Shown piece after piece: positions 2 to 5,161 of a stretch of DNA of 5,301 nucleotides. The stretch is from contig MGQK01000017.1 in assembly GCA_001797815.1 (NCBI GenBank), positions 34,366 to 39,666 on the forward strand. Reading direction: 5' to 3'. The notes under the pieces were generated by a model. That model did no database searches, was not told where the DNA came from, and saw only the letters and a list, made by a program, of their open reading frames with translations. Origin of the DNA: Deltaproteobacteria bacterium RBG_13_61_14. Its GTDB lineage: Bacteria > RBG-13-61-14. The position numbers and the translations under genes are program-made. Position 1 is the first letter of the stretch. Every line of letters starts with the position of its first letter.

Positions 2-1906
2 GTCGAGTTGGGTGAATGCCTGGGGCTGGCCTGGGGCCGCGGACCTTTCCAAGGAATTTTGCTGGAAGCCAAGCGCGCGCTGGACCGGATCGAAACCCGC
101 TGGCCGGAACAGGCTTACGCCGTCGAAATCGCGCCTCATGCCGTGGCCGCGGCCGGCCGCGGCGCCGCCGGCCTGTTTTACGCGGTCCAGACCTTGCTGC
201 AGCTTAGGGGCCGCGACGGGTCCTGGCCTTACGGGAGCATCGCCGACGCGCCCGCGCTCGGCTGGCGCGGCCTGCTCTGGGACGTAAGCCGGGGCCAGGT
301 GCCCACGCTGGAGCTGCTGAAGACGCTGGTGGACCTGCTCGCCTCGCTCAAGCTGAACCTGCTCACCTTCAACCTTGAACACACTTTTGCATACGCCAGG
401 CACCCGGCGATCGGCCGGGGCCACGACCCGCTCACCCCGGGAGAAGTCCGCGAGCTGGTGGATTACGCCCGGCCCCGGCAGGTGGAGGTGGTGCCGGCCC
501 AGCAGTCGCTCGGCCACCTCGACCACGTGCTCAAGCTGCCCGAATATCGGCGCCTGGCCTATGACCCGCAAGCGCTCTGGTCGCTCGATCCGGCCCGGCC
601 CGAGAGCTACCGGCTGCTCGAAGACCTCTACGAGGAGCTGATCCCCTGTTTTGACTCTTCCTTTTTCAACGTCTGCTGCGACGAGCCCTTTGACCTGGCC
701 CGCCGCTTCGAGGCCAGCCGCTTCGAGGGCAAAAGTTTTGCCCAGGTCTATCTCGATCACCTGCTCCGGCTTAAGTCCATCCTGGATCGGCACGGCAAGA
801 CCATGATGGTCTGGGGCGACATGCTCCTCGCCCATCCCGAGCTGCTCGCGCAAATTCCCCGGGACGTGATCGTCCTGGACTGGCAATACGGCAGCGGCGC
901 GCTCGAAGGCCCGGAGCATTACCGCCAGACCGTCGTACCGATCGCCGCCGCCGGGCTCCGATTCCTCACCTGCACCTGCACCTGGAACCTGATGAAGATT
1001 TTCACCAACCTCGACCTGCTCGCCCAGAACCACCGCGCTTTTATTCCCGAGGGCATCGCCCGCGGCTCGATCGGAAACATCGTCACCCACTGGGGCGACC
1101 TCGGACACATGAGCCTGCTCGGGCCGACCCTGCCCGCGCTGGCCCTGGCCGCGGAGTGGTCCTGGAGCGGGCGGGAACGGGCGGAGGCGGACCTGGACCG
1201 GGCCTATTCCTGGTCTATGTTCGGGGACGGCGAGGGCCGGGCGGCGAAACTCATGCGCAAGCTGAATGAGGTCAACCATTTGTTAGCCGGACCGGCCGGA
1301 CTGGGCGACGTGGGCTTCCTGGTCTTTTTCGACGAGCCGCTCGCCGGCGACCTGATCCGGGGAGTTCCCGACCCGGGCGCCAAGGCGGCGGAACTCCGGG
1401 CGCTCGCCGATCAGGCTCATGCAGAATTGCAAGAGCTGCCGGCCGGGGAGGGAAAGAACCTGCGCTGGCTCTGCGACCTGGAGCTGCCCATCGCGCAGGT
1501 CCGGGTGTTGGCCGCGAAGCTCTCCTTGTTGGCCCGTTTCCAGGCCGACTATCCGGGCTTGCCCCCGGCCGCGCCGGAAGTGGTGGAGGAAGTGCTGACC
1601 GGCCTGGCCCAGGGCTTTCGCGAGTTGCCGGCCCTGATCCAGGCCGCGGCCGAGACGCTCACCCGGCGCTGGCTGGACCAGGCCAAGCGCTCGGACCTGG
1701 ACTTGAACCTGGCGCGGTATGCCCGGCTCATCGAGGCCGGCTCGCGCCGGGCCGAGCAGCTCGAGAAGATTCTGCAGGATTACCGGAGCGGCGTTCCCCT
1801 GCCTCCGCTCGCCCAGGTGACCGACGCGCCTGAATTCGCGGAGTTCAAGTTCGACGCCCTGGCGGAAATGGGCGTCAAGCACCTGCTGGTCAAGGCCGGC
1901 GCATGA
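2..1906 (+). CDS. GH20-type beta-N-acetylhexosaminidase-like glycosidase, 5' partial
   Basis: Probable exo-acting glycoside hydrolase of family 20, expected to release terminal N-acetylhexosamine residues. The frame is open to the left edge. A TTG at 8 is possible, but the protein begins inside the N-terminal GH20b domain, so the true start is almost certainly upstream. Counting from that TTG: residues 36-66 carry the GH20b pattern ending GLFYAVQTLLQL; 85-95 GWRGLLWDVSR begins the TIM barrel, as in the family's RG-x-x-x-D-x-SR signature; 220-227 FNVCCDEP holds the Asp225-Glu226 pair at the position of the catalytic dyad (acetamide-orienting Asp, acid/base Glu); WGDM (269-272) and THWGD (360-364) are further barrel landmarks. 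Cys-Cys replaces the usual Gly-Gly before Asp-Glu. Residues from about 440 form a helical C-terminal region of unknown role. Location cannot be judged without the N-terminus. Its stop overlaps the next start by 4 bp. The family is fairly certain; the exact substrate is not. Confidence 0.88.
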   Translation, partial: VELGECLGLAWGRGPFQGILLEAKRALDRIETRWPEQAYAVEIAPHAVAAAGRGAAGLFYAVQTLLQLRGRDGSWPYGSIADAPALGWRGLLWDVSRGQVPTLELLKTLVDLLASLKLNLLTFNLEHTFAYARHPAIGRGHDPLTPGEVRELVDYARPRQVEVVPAQQSLGHLDHVLKLPEYRRLAYDPQALWSLDPARPESYRLLEDLYEELIPCFDSSFFNVCCDEPFDLARRFEASRFEGKSFAQVYLDHLLRLKSILDRHGKTMMVWGDMLLAHPELLAQIPRDVIVLDWQYGSGALEGPEHYRQTVVPIAAAGLRFLTCTCTWNLMKIFTNLDLLAQNHRAFIPEGIARGSIGNIVTHWGDLGHMSLLGPTLPALALAAEWSWSGRERAEADLDRAYSWSMFGDGEGRAAKLMRKLNEVNHLLAGPAGLGDVGFLVFFDEPLAGDLIRGVPDPGAKAAELRALADQAHAELQELPAGEGKNLRWLCDLELPIAQVRVLAAKLSLLARFQADYPGLPPAAPEVVEEVLTGLAQGFRELPALIQAAAETLTRRWLDQAKRSDLDLNLARYARLIEAGSRRAEQLEKILQDYRSGVPLPPLAQVTDAPEFAEFKFDALAEMGVKHLLVKAGA

Positions 1907-3606
1907 CTTCCTCGGAAATCGCCGCCTTCCTGGCCGGCTTCGCCGTGATCCTGGGCCTGGCCCGCCTGCTCGGGCACCTGGCGCGAATGCTCAAGCAGCC
2001 CGCGGTCATCGGCGAGATCGTGGCCGGCATCCTCCTGGGCCCCACCCTTTTCGGCACTTTCTTCCCGGAACTTTCTCACCAGCTCTTCCCCGGCTCCTTT
2101 CATTTCAAAGCGGCCTTTAACGCGCTGGCCACGCTCTCCATGTGCCTGCTCATGGTGGTGGCCGGGATGGAAGTGGAGTTGTCGGTCATCCGGCGGGAAG
2201 GGGCCCGGGCCGGCATCATCGGCGCCACCGGCACGGTCCTGCTCGCCCTGGTGGCGCTGGCGCTCGGCTTTTCCTACCCCGCCTTCTGGGGCAGCGGCGA
2301 AATCCCGCCACACGTCTTCGCGCTCTTTTTCGCCACCGCCATCGCCATTTCCGCGCTGCCGGTGATTATCCGCATCCTGATTGATCTCCGTCTGTTCAAG
2401 TCCAACTTCGGCATGATGGTCACCGCCACCGCCATGCTCAACGACCTCTGCGGGTGGTTCCTGTTCTCGGTGGTCATGGCCCTGGCCGGAGCCGGCAAAG
2501 CCCACCCGCGCTCGCCCCTGCTCACCATCACCCTCACCCTGGGCTTGGTCATTTTCAGTTTAACCGCCGGCCGCCGACTGGTCAATTGGCTTTTGCCCAA
2601 GGTGCAGCGGAACTTCACCTGGCCCGGCGGCGTGCTCACCTTCATCGTGGTGCTCTCCCTGGTCAGCGCCGCGGTCACCGAGTGGATCGGGGTCCACGCC
2701 GTGCTCGGCGCGTTCCTGGGCGGAGTCATGTTCAGCGATTCGCGCTTCCTGGAAGACAAGACCCGCGAGATCACCGACCAGTTCATCTCCAACATCTTCG
2801 CGCCCATCTTCTTCGCCTCCATCGGGTTCCACGCCAACTTCGCCGCCAACTTCCGGCCCGGGCTGGTGCTGGCGGTGCTGCTGCTGGCCCTGGCCGGCAA
2901 AGGGCTGGGCTTTTATCTCGGCGCGCGCTGGGCCAAAATCTACCAGCCCGAATCTTATGCCACCAGCTTCGCCCTGCTCAGCAGCGGCACCATGGGCATC
3001 ATCCTCGGCCTGGTCGGCCTGGAAGCCGGTTTTATCACCCACGAGCTCTTCGTGGCCCTGGTGATCATGGCCCTGGTCACCTCCATCCTGAGCGGGCCGC
3101 TGCTCTCCGCTTCTCTCAAGCTGCACCAGCGAAAGGGGATCCTGGAGTTGCTGGACCCGGGCCTCTTTGTGGCCGACCTCCAGGCCACCAACCCGGCGGA
3201 GGCGATCAGCGCCCTGGCCCGGCCCCTGGCCCGGGTTACTGACCTGGACGCGGACGTGATCGCCCGGGTGGTGGCCGACCGGGAAGAGCTGATGAGCACC
3301 GGCCTGGGCTGGGGCCTGGCCATTCCCCACGGCCGGATTCCGGGCCTGAAAAAACCCTACCTGGTCGTGGGCCGCTCCCGCCAGGGCATTGACTTCAAGG
3401 CGCCGGACGACAAGCCCAGCTATTGGATCTTCCTGGTCGTCACCCCGGAACGCGCCGACGTCGAGCAGATCCATATCCTCGCCGCCATCGCCCGCCGCTT
3501 TAATGACGAGAAATTCCGCCACGAGCTCCGCGCCATTGACACCTTTCACCAGTTCCGCCACCTGATCGAGACGACCAGCGAAGCGGACTCGCCGGGCGGG
3601 CTTTAG
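1903..3606 (+). CDS. Cation:proton antiporter (CPA2/KefB-like) with C-terminal PTS EIIA (PtsN/fructose-type) domain
   Basis: Inner-membrane monovalent cation/H+ exchanger fused to a cytoplasmic regulatory domain; 567 aa. Residues 5-405 contain about 12 hydrophobic segments. CPA2 landmarks are QPAVIGEIVAGILLGPT (32-48), the unwound-helix region ATAIAISALPVI (144-155), Asn180-Asp181 in MLNDLCGW as the ion-binding pair, and Lys333 in a GKGLGFYLGAR helix. In the family, electrogenic members usually have Asp-Asp and electroneutral ones Asn-Asp, so this may be electroneutral (inference). After a linker (about 406-430), residues 431-556 are an EIIA domain of the PtsN/fructose type. His476 in GLAIPHGR is the phosphorylatable histidine, followed by GIDFKAPDDKP and a VTPE strand; Gln522 sits where many relatives have a second His. 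The ATG start lies in an ATGA overlap with the hydrolase stop, preceded only by a weak AAGG, which suggests translational coupling. The TAG stop is completed by the mobile element that follows. Which cation is carried cannot be told. Confidence 0.93.
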   Translation: MTSSEIAAFLAGFAVILGLARLLGHLARMLKQPAVIGEIVAGILLGPTLFGTFFPELSHQLFPGSFHFKAAFNALATLSMCLLMVVAGMEVELSVIRREGARAGIIGATGTVLLALVALALGFSYPAFWGSGEIPPHVFALFFATAIAISALPVIIRILIDLRLFKSNFGMMVTATAMLNDLCGWFLFSVVMALAGAGKAHPRSPLLTITLTLGLVIFSLTAGRRLVNWLLPKVQRNFTWPGGVLTFIVVLSLVSAAVTEWIGVHAVLGAFLGGVMFSDSRFLEDKTREITDQFISNIFAPIFFASIGFHANFAANFRPGLVLAVLLLALAGKGLGFYLGARWAKIYQPESYATSFALLSSGTMGIILGLVGLEAGFITHELFVALVIMALVTSILSGPLLSASLKLHQRKGILELLDPGLFVADLQATNPAEAISALARPLARVTDLDADVIARVVADREELMSTGLGWGLAIPHGRIPGLKKPYLVVGRSRQGIDFKAPDDKPSYWIFLVVTPERADVEQIHILAAIARRFNDEKFRHELRAIDTFHQFRHLIETTSEADSPGGL

Positions 3607-3713
3607 GGTAGTGGATCAAAATTTTCTTTATAGAGTAGGGGCGGTTCGCGAACCGCCCCTACCCAAAGCATGCCGATCATTAATTGTCAATCCATTATTG
3701 AAACACTACACTA
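3604..3713. mobile_element. MITE-like element, copy A (IS630/Tc1-mariner-type ends)
   Basis: A 106-bp AT-richer insert (3606-3711) flanked by TA on both sides. The left end GGGTAGTGGATCAAAATT (3606-3623) matches the left end of copy B at 16 of 18 bases. The right end TGAAACACTACAC (3699-3711) differs from that of copy B at one base. Its own two ends match each other at about 10 of 13 positions, so this copy looks older or more diverged than copy B. It encodes no protein and has a perfect palindrome in its middle. It fills almost the whole space between two converging genes. IS630-type elements are known to duplicate TA, often within CTAG; here the target would be TTAG. The assignment to that transposase group is inferred from ends and target only. 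Confidence 0.72.
3635..3662. repeat. 28-bp perfect palindrome (GTAGGGGC-type core of copy A); possible bidirectional terminator
   Basis: The two 14-base halves are exact reverse complements, starting GTAGGGGCGGTTCG and centred between 3648 and 3649. Transcribed from either side it would form a long GC-rich hairpin between the two convergent genes, so it could block read-through both ways. No clear U-tract follows on either strand, so a classical intrinsic terminator is not shown. The same outer arms, GTAGGGGC and GCCCCTAC, occur in copy B. I recognise this core as resembling palindromic intergenic repeats common in uncultured bacterial genomes. Confidence 0.7.
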
Positions 3714-4871
3714 GGGATTTTTTTCCGCGCGGAGGATGAAGAGGGTGATTTCCGGCGGGCAGTTGAGCCGGAAGGGCCAGCCCACGGTGCCGGTGCCGCG
3801 GGAGGTGTAGAGCGTCTGGCCGGCGACGCGGTAGAGCCCGGAAGGACGTTGGAAGCCGAGGTGGGCGAGCCCGGGCAGCCCGAAGGGCAAGCGGAGCTGG
3901 CCGCCGTGGGTATGGCCGGCCAGGGTCAGGGCGACGGGCCGGCCCTGGACCCGTTCAAAGGCGGAAGGTCGGTGCGCGAGCAGGATCACCGGCAGGCCGG
4001 CCGGGCAATCGGCCAGGTAATGGGGGATCATTTCCTCCCAGGGGTCGGCGCCGGTCCAGTTCGCGCCCGAGTCCTCCATCCCCAACAGCGCCAGGCGCGC
4101 CCCGCGCTCTTCCAGGCCCAGGCACTGGTTGCGCAGGACGTGGAACCCCCGTTCTTCCATCCTCTTCGACACCGCCTCGGCGCCGGTGTAAACGTCGTGG
4201 TTGCCGATGATGGCGTAGCGGCCCAGCCGGGGCTTTAACCCTTCCAGGCCGTCGGCCAGCACGTGCACGTAGTCGGGATGATGGTCCACCATGTCGCCGG
4301 TGAGCACGAACAGGTCGGGCTGGAGCTGCATGATCATCTCGCCGATGCGCTCCATCTCCGCCCGCGCGTTCCACCAGGCCACGTGCGGGTCCGACAACTG
4401 CACCAGCCGGATGCCGCTCTGCTCCGGGGGCAACCCGGGGATAATCACTTCCTGGGTCGTGATCCGGGGCGGCCGCAGCGTGCCGGCCAGACCGATGATG
4501 GTGGCCAGGGTCCAGAGCCCGATCCCGGAAAGCATGACCGCGCGCAGGCCGGGCAAGACCCAGGGCCAGCCTGAAAGCCAGCCGGCGGCGCGGCCGAGGA
4601 TGATGACGGGCGCGAGGAAGAGGAGGAAGGCGAGCCAGTTGAAGTGCCAGGCAAAAACCGGTCGCACGACCAGGGCCGCGGTCAGGAGCGAGGGCTGGCG
4701 GGCGTGTCCGGCCAGGCCCATCAGGTAAGGCAGGGGCAGGCTGAAGAGCACAAAGCCGGCGACGGCGCCGATCGCCCAGCGGCCCTGGAGTTTGAGACCC
4801 CAGATCAAGATGAAAGCCGCCAGCGCCTGCAGGCCGATCAGGACCGCGGTAAAGATTGCTCGATCGCCCAT
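3711..4871 (-). CDS. Membrane-anchored calcineurin-like metallophosphoesterase (YaeI/YkuE-like)
   Basis: Predicted metal-dependent phosphoesterase, 386 aa, with four hydrophobic segments (about 5-25, 31-52, 72-92, 104-123) ahead of the catalytic domain (about 135-382). All the standard metal-site motifs are present in order: Asp151-x-His153 in QLSDPH, Gly182-Asp183 in LTGDMVD, Gly213-Asn-His-Asp216, His290 in LLAHRP, and His310-Thr-His312 in AGHTHGGQL. Related proteins include the lipid A-type or phospholipid-related enzymes YaeI and YkuE, but the substrate here is unknown. An in-frame TTG at 4970 would add 33 residues, but that start lies inside mobile element copy B. The ATG at 4871 follows a GGAG and leads directly into the first membrane helix, so it is chosen. 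The gene converges on the antiporter, and its TAG stop includes the last base of copy A. Which side of the membrane the catalytic domain faces is not resolved by the loop charges. Confidence 0.92.
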   Translation of the reverse strand: MGDRAIFTAVLIGLQALAAFILIWGLKLQGRWAIGAVAGFVLFSLPLPYLMGLAGHARQPSLLTAALVVRPVFAWHFNWLAFLLFLAPVIILGRAAGWLSGWPWVLPGLRAVMLSGIGLWTLATIIGLAGTLRPPRITTQEVIIPGLPPEQSGIRLVQLSDPHVAWWNARAEMERIGEMIMQLQPDLFVLTGDMVDHHPDYVHVLADGLEGLKPRLGRYAIIGNHDVYTGAEAVSKRMEERGFHVLRNQCLGLEERGARLALLGMEDSGANWTGADPWEEMIPHYLADCPAGLPVILLAHRPSAFERVQGRPVALTLAGHTHGGQLRLPFGLPGLAHLGFQRPSGLYRVAGQTLYTSRGTGTVGWPFRLNCPPEITLFILRAEKNP

Positions 4872-4953: not shown

Positions 4954-5161
4954 CTAGTGTAGTGTATCAAAATTACGAATGCTTAACCTGGGAAATAGGT
5001 CATCCATGTTTTTGGCTAAAACCATGACGATTGGACCCTTTTTCGTAGGGGCGCGGCTTGCCGCGCCCAAGAACGGGCAGGGCAAGCCCTGCCCCTACAG
5101 CCTTCGGACTCCTCGGTGGCGTCCAAGAATAATGTGCCATCAGAGTGATACACTACACTAG
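4954..5161. mobile_element. MITE-like element, copy B (IS630/Tc1-mariner-type ends)
   Basis: The ends CTAGTGTAGTGTATCA (4954-4969) and TGATACACTACACTAG (5146-5161) are exact 16-base inverted repeats. If TA is the target duplication, the element proper is 4957-5158 (202 bp) with 13-bp perfect terminal repeats, inserted at a CTAG site. That matches the target choice known for IS630. There is no transposase gene, so it would be mobilised in trans. The interior holds about 75 bp of non-repeated AT-richer sequence followed by two adjacent hairpins. It separates two divergent genes and reaches to 29 bp from the start codon of the right one, so it probably forms part of their upstream regions. Confidence 0.83.
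5045..5098. repeat. Double-hairpin core of copy B within GTAGGGGC/GCCCCTAC arms
   Basis: Two stem-loops lie side by side: GGGCGCGGC/GCCGCGCCC (5049-5057 with 5060-5068, loop TT) and GGGCAGGGC/GCCCTGCCC (5075-5083 with 5086-5094, loop AA). The outer arms GTAGGGGC (5045-5052) and GCCCCTAC (5091-5098) are also complementary, so a single larger fold competes with the two hairpins. Read as protein, it gives low-complexity peptides of the type often annotated by mistake as small hypothetical genes. Confidence 0.75.

Follow-up and report, generated by a model that had tools for sequence, protein, structure and literature searches.

A small IS630-type element at the shared stop site of two convergent genes and the concentration of its family at stop codons

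Element A, which lies between two convergent genes in the 5,301-nt stretch of DNA that we analysed (the window), is a small non-autonomous MITE of the IS630/Tc1-mariner type. Our account as a whole, to which we assign a probability of about 0.9, is that the element was pasted into a CTAG-like site, that TAG was rebuilt at its junctions, and that the surviving members of its family are concentrated at stop codons. For the homologous family the target, the TA duplication, the preservation of stops, the empty sites and a transposase partner in Pseudomonas are established; for element A itself we infer the same history, with transposition in trans in its host.

Direct reading of the sequence, together with a script, places element A at positions 3606–3711 (106 bp), bracketed by the left and right copies of the duplicated TA target at 3604–3605 and 3712–3713. 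Its ends are TAGGGTAGTGGATCAAAA and TAGTGTAGTGTTTCAATA (GGGTAGTGGATCAAAA and GTGTAGTGTTTCAATA when read inward), and the left end has drifted. The plus-strand gene (1903–3606) encodes a Na+/H+ antiporter with a C-terminal PTS EIIA domain (Pfam Na_H_Exchanger and PTS_EIIA_2). Its frame finishes GGG CTT TAG, the stop being composed of the left TA and G3606, the first base of element A. The facing minus-strand gene (3711–4871) encodes a membrane-anchored calcineurin-like phosphoesterase (Pfam Metallophos), the coding signal of which stops at element A; it finishes AAT CCC TAG, the stop (3713–3711) taking the right TA and C3711, the last base of the element. The sequence-only reading had claimed that both stops consist of a flanking TA plus the terminal G of the element, and this was borne out. 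A search of Rfam gave no match within the window.

Removal of positions 3606–3713, that is element A and one TA, yields GCGGGCTTTAGGGATTT (junction CTTTAGGGATT); here the plus frame closes with ...SPGGL* (TAG) and the minus frame with ...AEKNP* (TAA), and the two overlap by 2 bp. The script thus reproduced the arrangement that had been predicted for this site, and neither protein is altered by the in silico removal. Because the base after the right-flank TA is G, the antiporter stop was already TAG before the insertion, and element A would have changed only the phosphoesterase stop, from TAA to TAG. The element-free form of this site is a putative one, deduced from the window's own sequence: a search of the genome contigs with the antiporter found no close relative with the empty site of element A, and the best antiporter matches in two genomes of the same order were weak.

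Empty sites were found for homologous elements. Five elements, all in Pseudomonas genome G072, each end two convergent genes at once, as element A does; when genes were re-called on the rebuilt empty sites, the second stop was lost at one (L193), leaving four double-stop sites rather than five. For all three of the double-stop elements tested (L192, L182, and L172), congeneric Pseudomonas genomes carry an intact element-free site with overlapping stops. These read CTGAGCTAGGTT... in L312 and GACGGCTAGGCGCG... in L358, and for L172 several relatives have CCCTAGAGCGC or CCTTAAAGC; a single TA is the meeting point of the two convergent genes at every one of these sites. They are direct evidence that members of the family insert where stops overlap, with both genes still ending in place. 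Together with the family's strong over-representation at stops (see below), they back the earlier proposal that element A entered at a shared stop site and left the proteins unaltered.

The duplicated target is the dinucleotide TA, which is present on both sides of element A and of the pooled elements described below and is single at the empty sites. Immediately outside TAG, 196 of 213 ends have a C, a base that the search pattern did not specify (it did specify the inner G). Of 89 reconstructed targets, 74 are CTAG. The target of element A was TTAG, not CTAG, and its flanks are TTAG on the left and CTAG on the right, while those of another element (L140) are CTAG and CTAA. Since such non-CTAG targets (TTAG for element A, CTAA for L140) occur, the duplication must be of TA only, and the terminal G and C are part of the element. 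An IS5-type duplication of 4 bp (CTAG/YTAR), as for MITEPsy1, was considered and rejected owing to the unequal flanks at these same two elements. PMC2170065 describes the duplication of TA by the IS630 family and, citing Tenzen and Ohtsubo (1991), a preference for TA within 5'-CTAG-3'. One locus (L171:2000-2328) holds two tandem elements with one common TA (CACACTAGTGTGG), which is consistent with reuse of an element end as a fresh CTAG target.

The terminal repeat TAGTGTRGTGTYYCA also occurs in 17 genomes of other phyla. The paired-end pattern was found at 26 loci, in genomes labelled Pseudomonas, Lysobacterales, Nitrospira, Dehalococcoidia, Verrucomicrobia, Phycisphaerae, and Syntrophaceae, among others, and was absent from viral contigs. 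These loci and further copies in the same 17 genomes make up our pooled set of 124 distinct elements, de-duplicated by their flanks. In the window's own genome five ends match TAGTGTAGTGTNTCA with no more than one mismatch, and there are eight elements once related GTG-type ends (GTGTCGTGT, GTGCAGGGT) are included. A full-length relative is present in the Pseudomonas genome G072, where an apparently intact 1.19-kb IS630-type element (L340:900-2092, contig 15) with perfect 20-bp ends (TAGTGTGGTGTTTCAGAAATAA) encodes a DDE_3 and HTH transposase and shares its ends with the MITEs of that genome. An autonomous partner thus exists for the family, outside the window's genome; the window's own assembly, a fragmented one, yielded no DDE_3 transposase. 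The TA duplication, the CTAG targets and this DDE_3/HTH partner with the same ends place the family with IS630/Tc1-mariner.

The window holds a second member, element B (4955–5160; 202 bp plus the flanking TAs), which has the ends of element A and a CTAG target and lies in a divergent promoter region, away from stops. It contains two adjoining palindromes, GTAGGGGCGCGG... and GGGCAGGGCAAGCCCTGCCC, as if two REP-like units had been fused. Some ends depart from the usual form. At two loci (L060, near 2437, and L064, near 2456) the left end is TAAGTG, with one A more than TAGTG, and the neighbouring gene at L060 ends in TAA; these are either the result of a cut that differs by one base or old variants. 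At three others in the window's own genome (L058:2500, L072:10128, and L089:2500) we observed different TA-flanked MITE families with ends beginning in C or T. When read inward, these give a stop in the second codon (TAC TAA, TAT TGA), and a 693-nt frame in L089 finishes in this manner.

The sequence-only reading had suggested a genome-wide count of family members at stop codons, and a count over a pattern-based sample revealed an enrichment. The terminal TAG is the exact stop of a predicted gene in 47 of the 124 pooled elements (38%), a sample drawn by end pattern from draft genomes with genes called by a simple codon-model finder. In the window's own genome, five of the eight elements with GTG-type ends lie exactly at a gene stop, compared with one of 17 members of other TA-flanked families around hairpins (Fisher P 0.006). 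These five are element A, with both ends, and copies on contigs 22, 10, 16, and 63, and the flanking genes encode NfeD, TPR, carboxylesterase, and pterin-binding proteins in addition to the window's two.

Such a pattern might also arise by truncation, with elements landing inside coding sequences and their TAG creating new, earlier stops. Among 58 genes that run into an element end, the stop is the terminal TAG (offset 0) in 52, where a random frame would give one third. The remaining six stop at offsets of 5–29, as would be expected of insertions within the 3' ends of genes. An in-frame CTAG, with C in the third codon position, is however impossible inside an open frame, and the G of the right flank restores TAG. 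Moreover, in the three empty-site cases the orthologue stops exactly at the insertion point, so these genes ended there already, and the proteins at element ends have complete C-terminal domains: 29 of 30 stop-at-element genes checked contain Pfam families, often spanning the C-terminus. We therefore regard truncation as highly improbable.

A more serious alternative is availability. Where a genome is compact and GC-rich, most of the TA or CTAG sites that tolerate an insertion might be stops, and neither selection nor a special end would then be needed. We defined tolerated sites as TA or CTAG outside coding sequence together with stop sites, at the same loci as the elements, and took background counts from 20 stretches of 20 kb each from G072 and G000. 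In several sets 18–20% of the tolerated CTAG sites are stops (20% near elements), about half of the observed 38%, which lends this explanation some weight. Against it, stops are only 4.5% of tolerated TA sites, and in 400 kb of G072 chosen regardless of elements, the share of stops among tolerated CTAG sites is 9.7%. In G072, 19 of 34 elements are at stops, and when intergenic gaps of at most 300 bp are considered, the elements are divided 19 at stops to 8 in gaps versus 20 to 47 for the CTAG background (OR 5.6, P 5e-4). Coding CTAG sites hold three elements versus 121 background sites. Some comparisons give a modest excess over CTAG availability, with an OR of 2.5 in the pooled set (P 8e-4) and ratios of 19:1 for elements and 20:6 for background when stops are compared with convergent gaps only (P 0.12). 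Availability by itself we consider unlikely, although it is the strongest of the rivals.

Our preferred reading, in which target choice and survival act together, divides the bias as follows. The CTAG preference accounts for much of it, a further part is plausibly due to avoidance of coding and promoter DNA, and selection may lie behind the remaining excess over CTAG availability. The sequence-only reading had held that an end reading TAG inward makes insertions at gene ends benign and biases survival. In substance the bias is supported, and the terminal G does keep the stop and so renders the insertion harmless; the main cause of the bias, in contrast, is the choice of target (CTAG in most cases), together with probable purifying selection, rather than the terminal TAG.

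At the centre of element A (3635–3662) is a perfect GC-rich palindrome, GTAGGGGCGGTTCGCGAACCGCCCCTAC, which is GTAG-tagged and REP-like (fold z -4.9). Palindrome arms of this kind occur at 72 places in the genome; several of the eight own-genome elements share the central GTAGGGGC...GCCCCTAC palindrome, and it is also present within MITEs with unrelated ends. The same IS630-type ends were observed around lineage-specific middles (L155, L144, L146, and others), with GTAGGGGC...GCCCCTAC in the window's genome, TGTCATTCCCGCGAAAGCGGGAATCC in Dehalococcoidia and CCGTTCGTGGTGAGC...GAACGG in Nitrospira. The REP-like hairpins, which are widespread, may travel as cargo of IS630-type MITEs. The strong folding of element A also raises the idea that such elements are kept as bidirectional terminators or insulators between convergent genes by way of the GC-rich hairpin. 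Consistent with this are the position of element A, which parts two genes that would have overlapped at their ends in the inferred ancestral state, and the pneumococcal SPRITE repeats, which are terminator-like and enriched between convergent genes (PMC3049150). However, no T-run terminator was detected at element A, the central hairpins vary from one lineage to the next, and many copies are found elsewhere than in convergent gaps, and we consider such a role doubtful.

Among known systems the closest are IS630 and ISY100 (IS630 family, Tc1/mariner), which share with our family the TA duplication, the CTAG preference and, in an autonomous relative with matching ends, the DDE_3 transposase. Element A differs in being a 106-bp non-coding derivative, and in the literature found, landing in stop codons is not described for IS630 or ISY100. 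RUP, a 107-bp MITE with IS630-Spn1 as its presumed mobiliser, and the Correia elements are likewise MITEs of about 100 bp at TA, but their ends differ from those of element A, and we found no report of these ends acting as stop codons. RUP is over-represented between convergent genes of Streptococcus pneumoniae, and RUP, SPRITE and IS elements are all enriched in such positions (PMC3049150). Pneumococcal BOX repeats encode the stop of 36 annotated genes with no clear truncation (PMC3049150) and, as in element A, the repeat supplies the neighbour's stop. The BOX ends, unlike those of element A, are not of the TA/CTAG IS630 type, and a target-regenerating end is undescribed for them. MITEPsy1 of Pseudomonas syringae, a 100-bp MITE for which transposition has been shown, inserts at CTAG or YTAA (PMC3189936); its target choice is similar, but its duplication is 4 nt long, its ends are IS5-like (ISPsy2), and it belongs to another family. 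Finally, GTAG-tagged REP palindromes have been described (PMC3733652). The central palindrome of element A, and only this part, resembles them in that it also starts with GTAG and is repeated genome-wide, whereas in element A it is embedded between IS630-type ends.

We propose that an IS630-type transposase acting in trans would cut element A and paste it into the TA of a CTAG-like site. Insertion into C/T-TA-G/A doubles the TA. As the first base of the element is G and its last is C, a TAG that is read inward is rebuilt at both junctions, and a stop on either strand is kept. Each insertion also recreates CTAG at both ends. As CTAG amounts to NNC followed by TAG, amber stops after C are ready-made targets. 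The prime landing sites are therefore genes ending ...C TAG or ...T TAG/TAA, along with convergent pairs overlapping at CTAG, TTAG, or TTAA, since these contain the target and an insertion there leaves both proteins as before. Insertions into coding or promoter DNA would mostly be lost, and the survivors would become concentrated at stops. It is also conceivable, if improbable, that something besides the CTAG motif ties target choice to gene ends, such as DNA structure or the termination of transcription at stops, or that the terminal G has been selected to keep stops and to regenerate a reusable CTAG at both junctions.

Repeats that encode the stops of their neighbours (BOX), the enrichment of repeats and IS elements between convergent genes and the CTAG preference of IS630 were already known; a link between that preference and stop codons was not reported in the literature searched, which left most subscription journals outside its coverage. 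The present findings turn a known biochemical quirk into a clear genomic rule: an element with a stop-containing target and a stop-rebuilding end can enter the one spot in a compact genome that costs neither neighbouring protein. This rule predicts where such elements persist and explains elements that part convergent genes with overlapping stops. Target bias and selection are separable by a simple transposition assay, and if coupling to gene ends or selection on the terminal G were true, stop codons would constitute a genuine niche for a transposon family.
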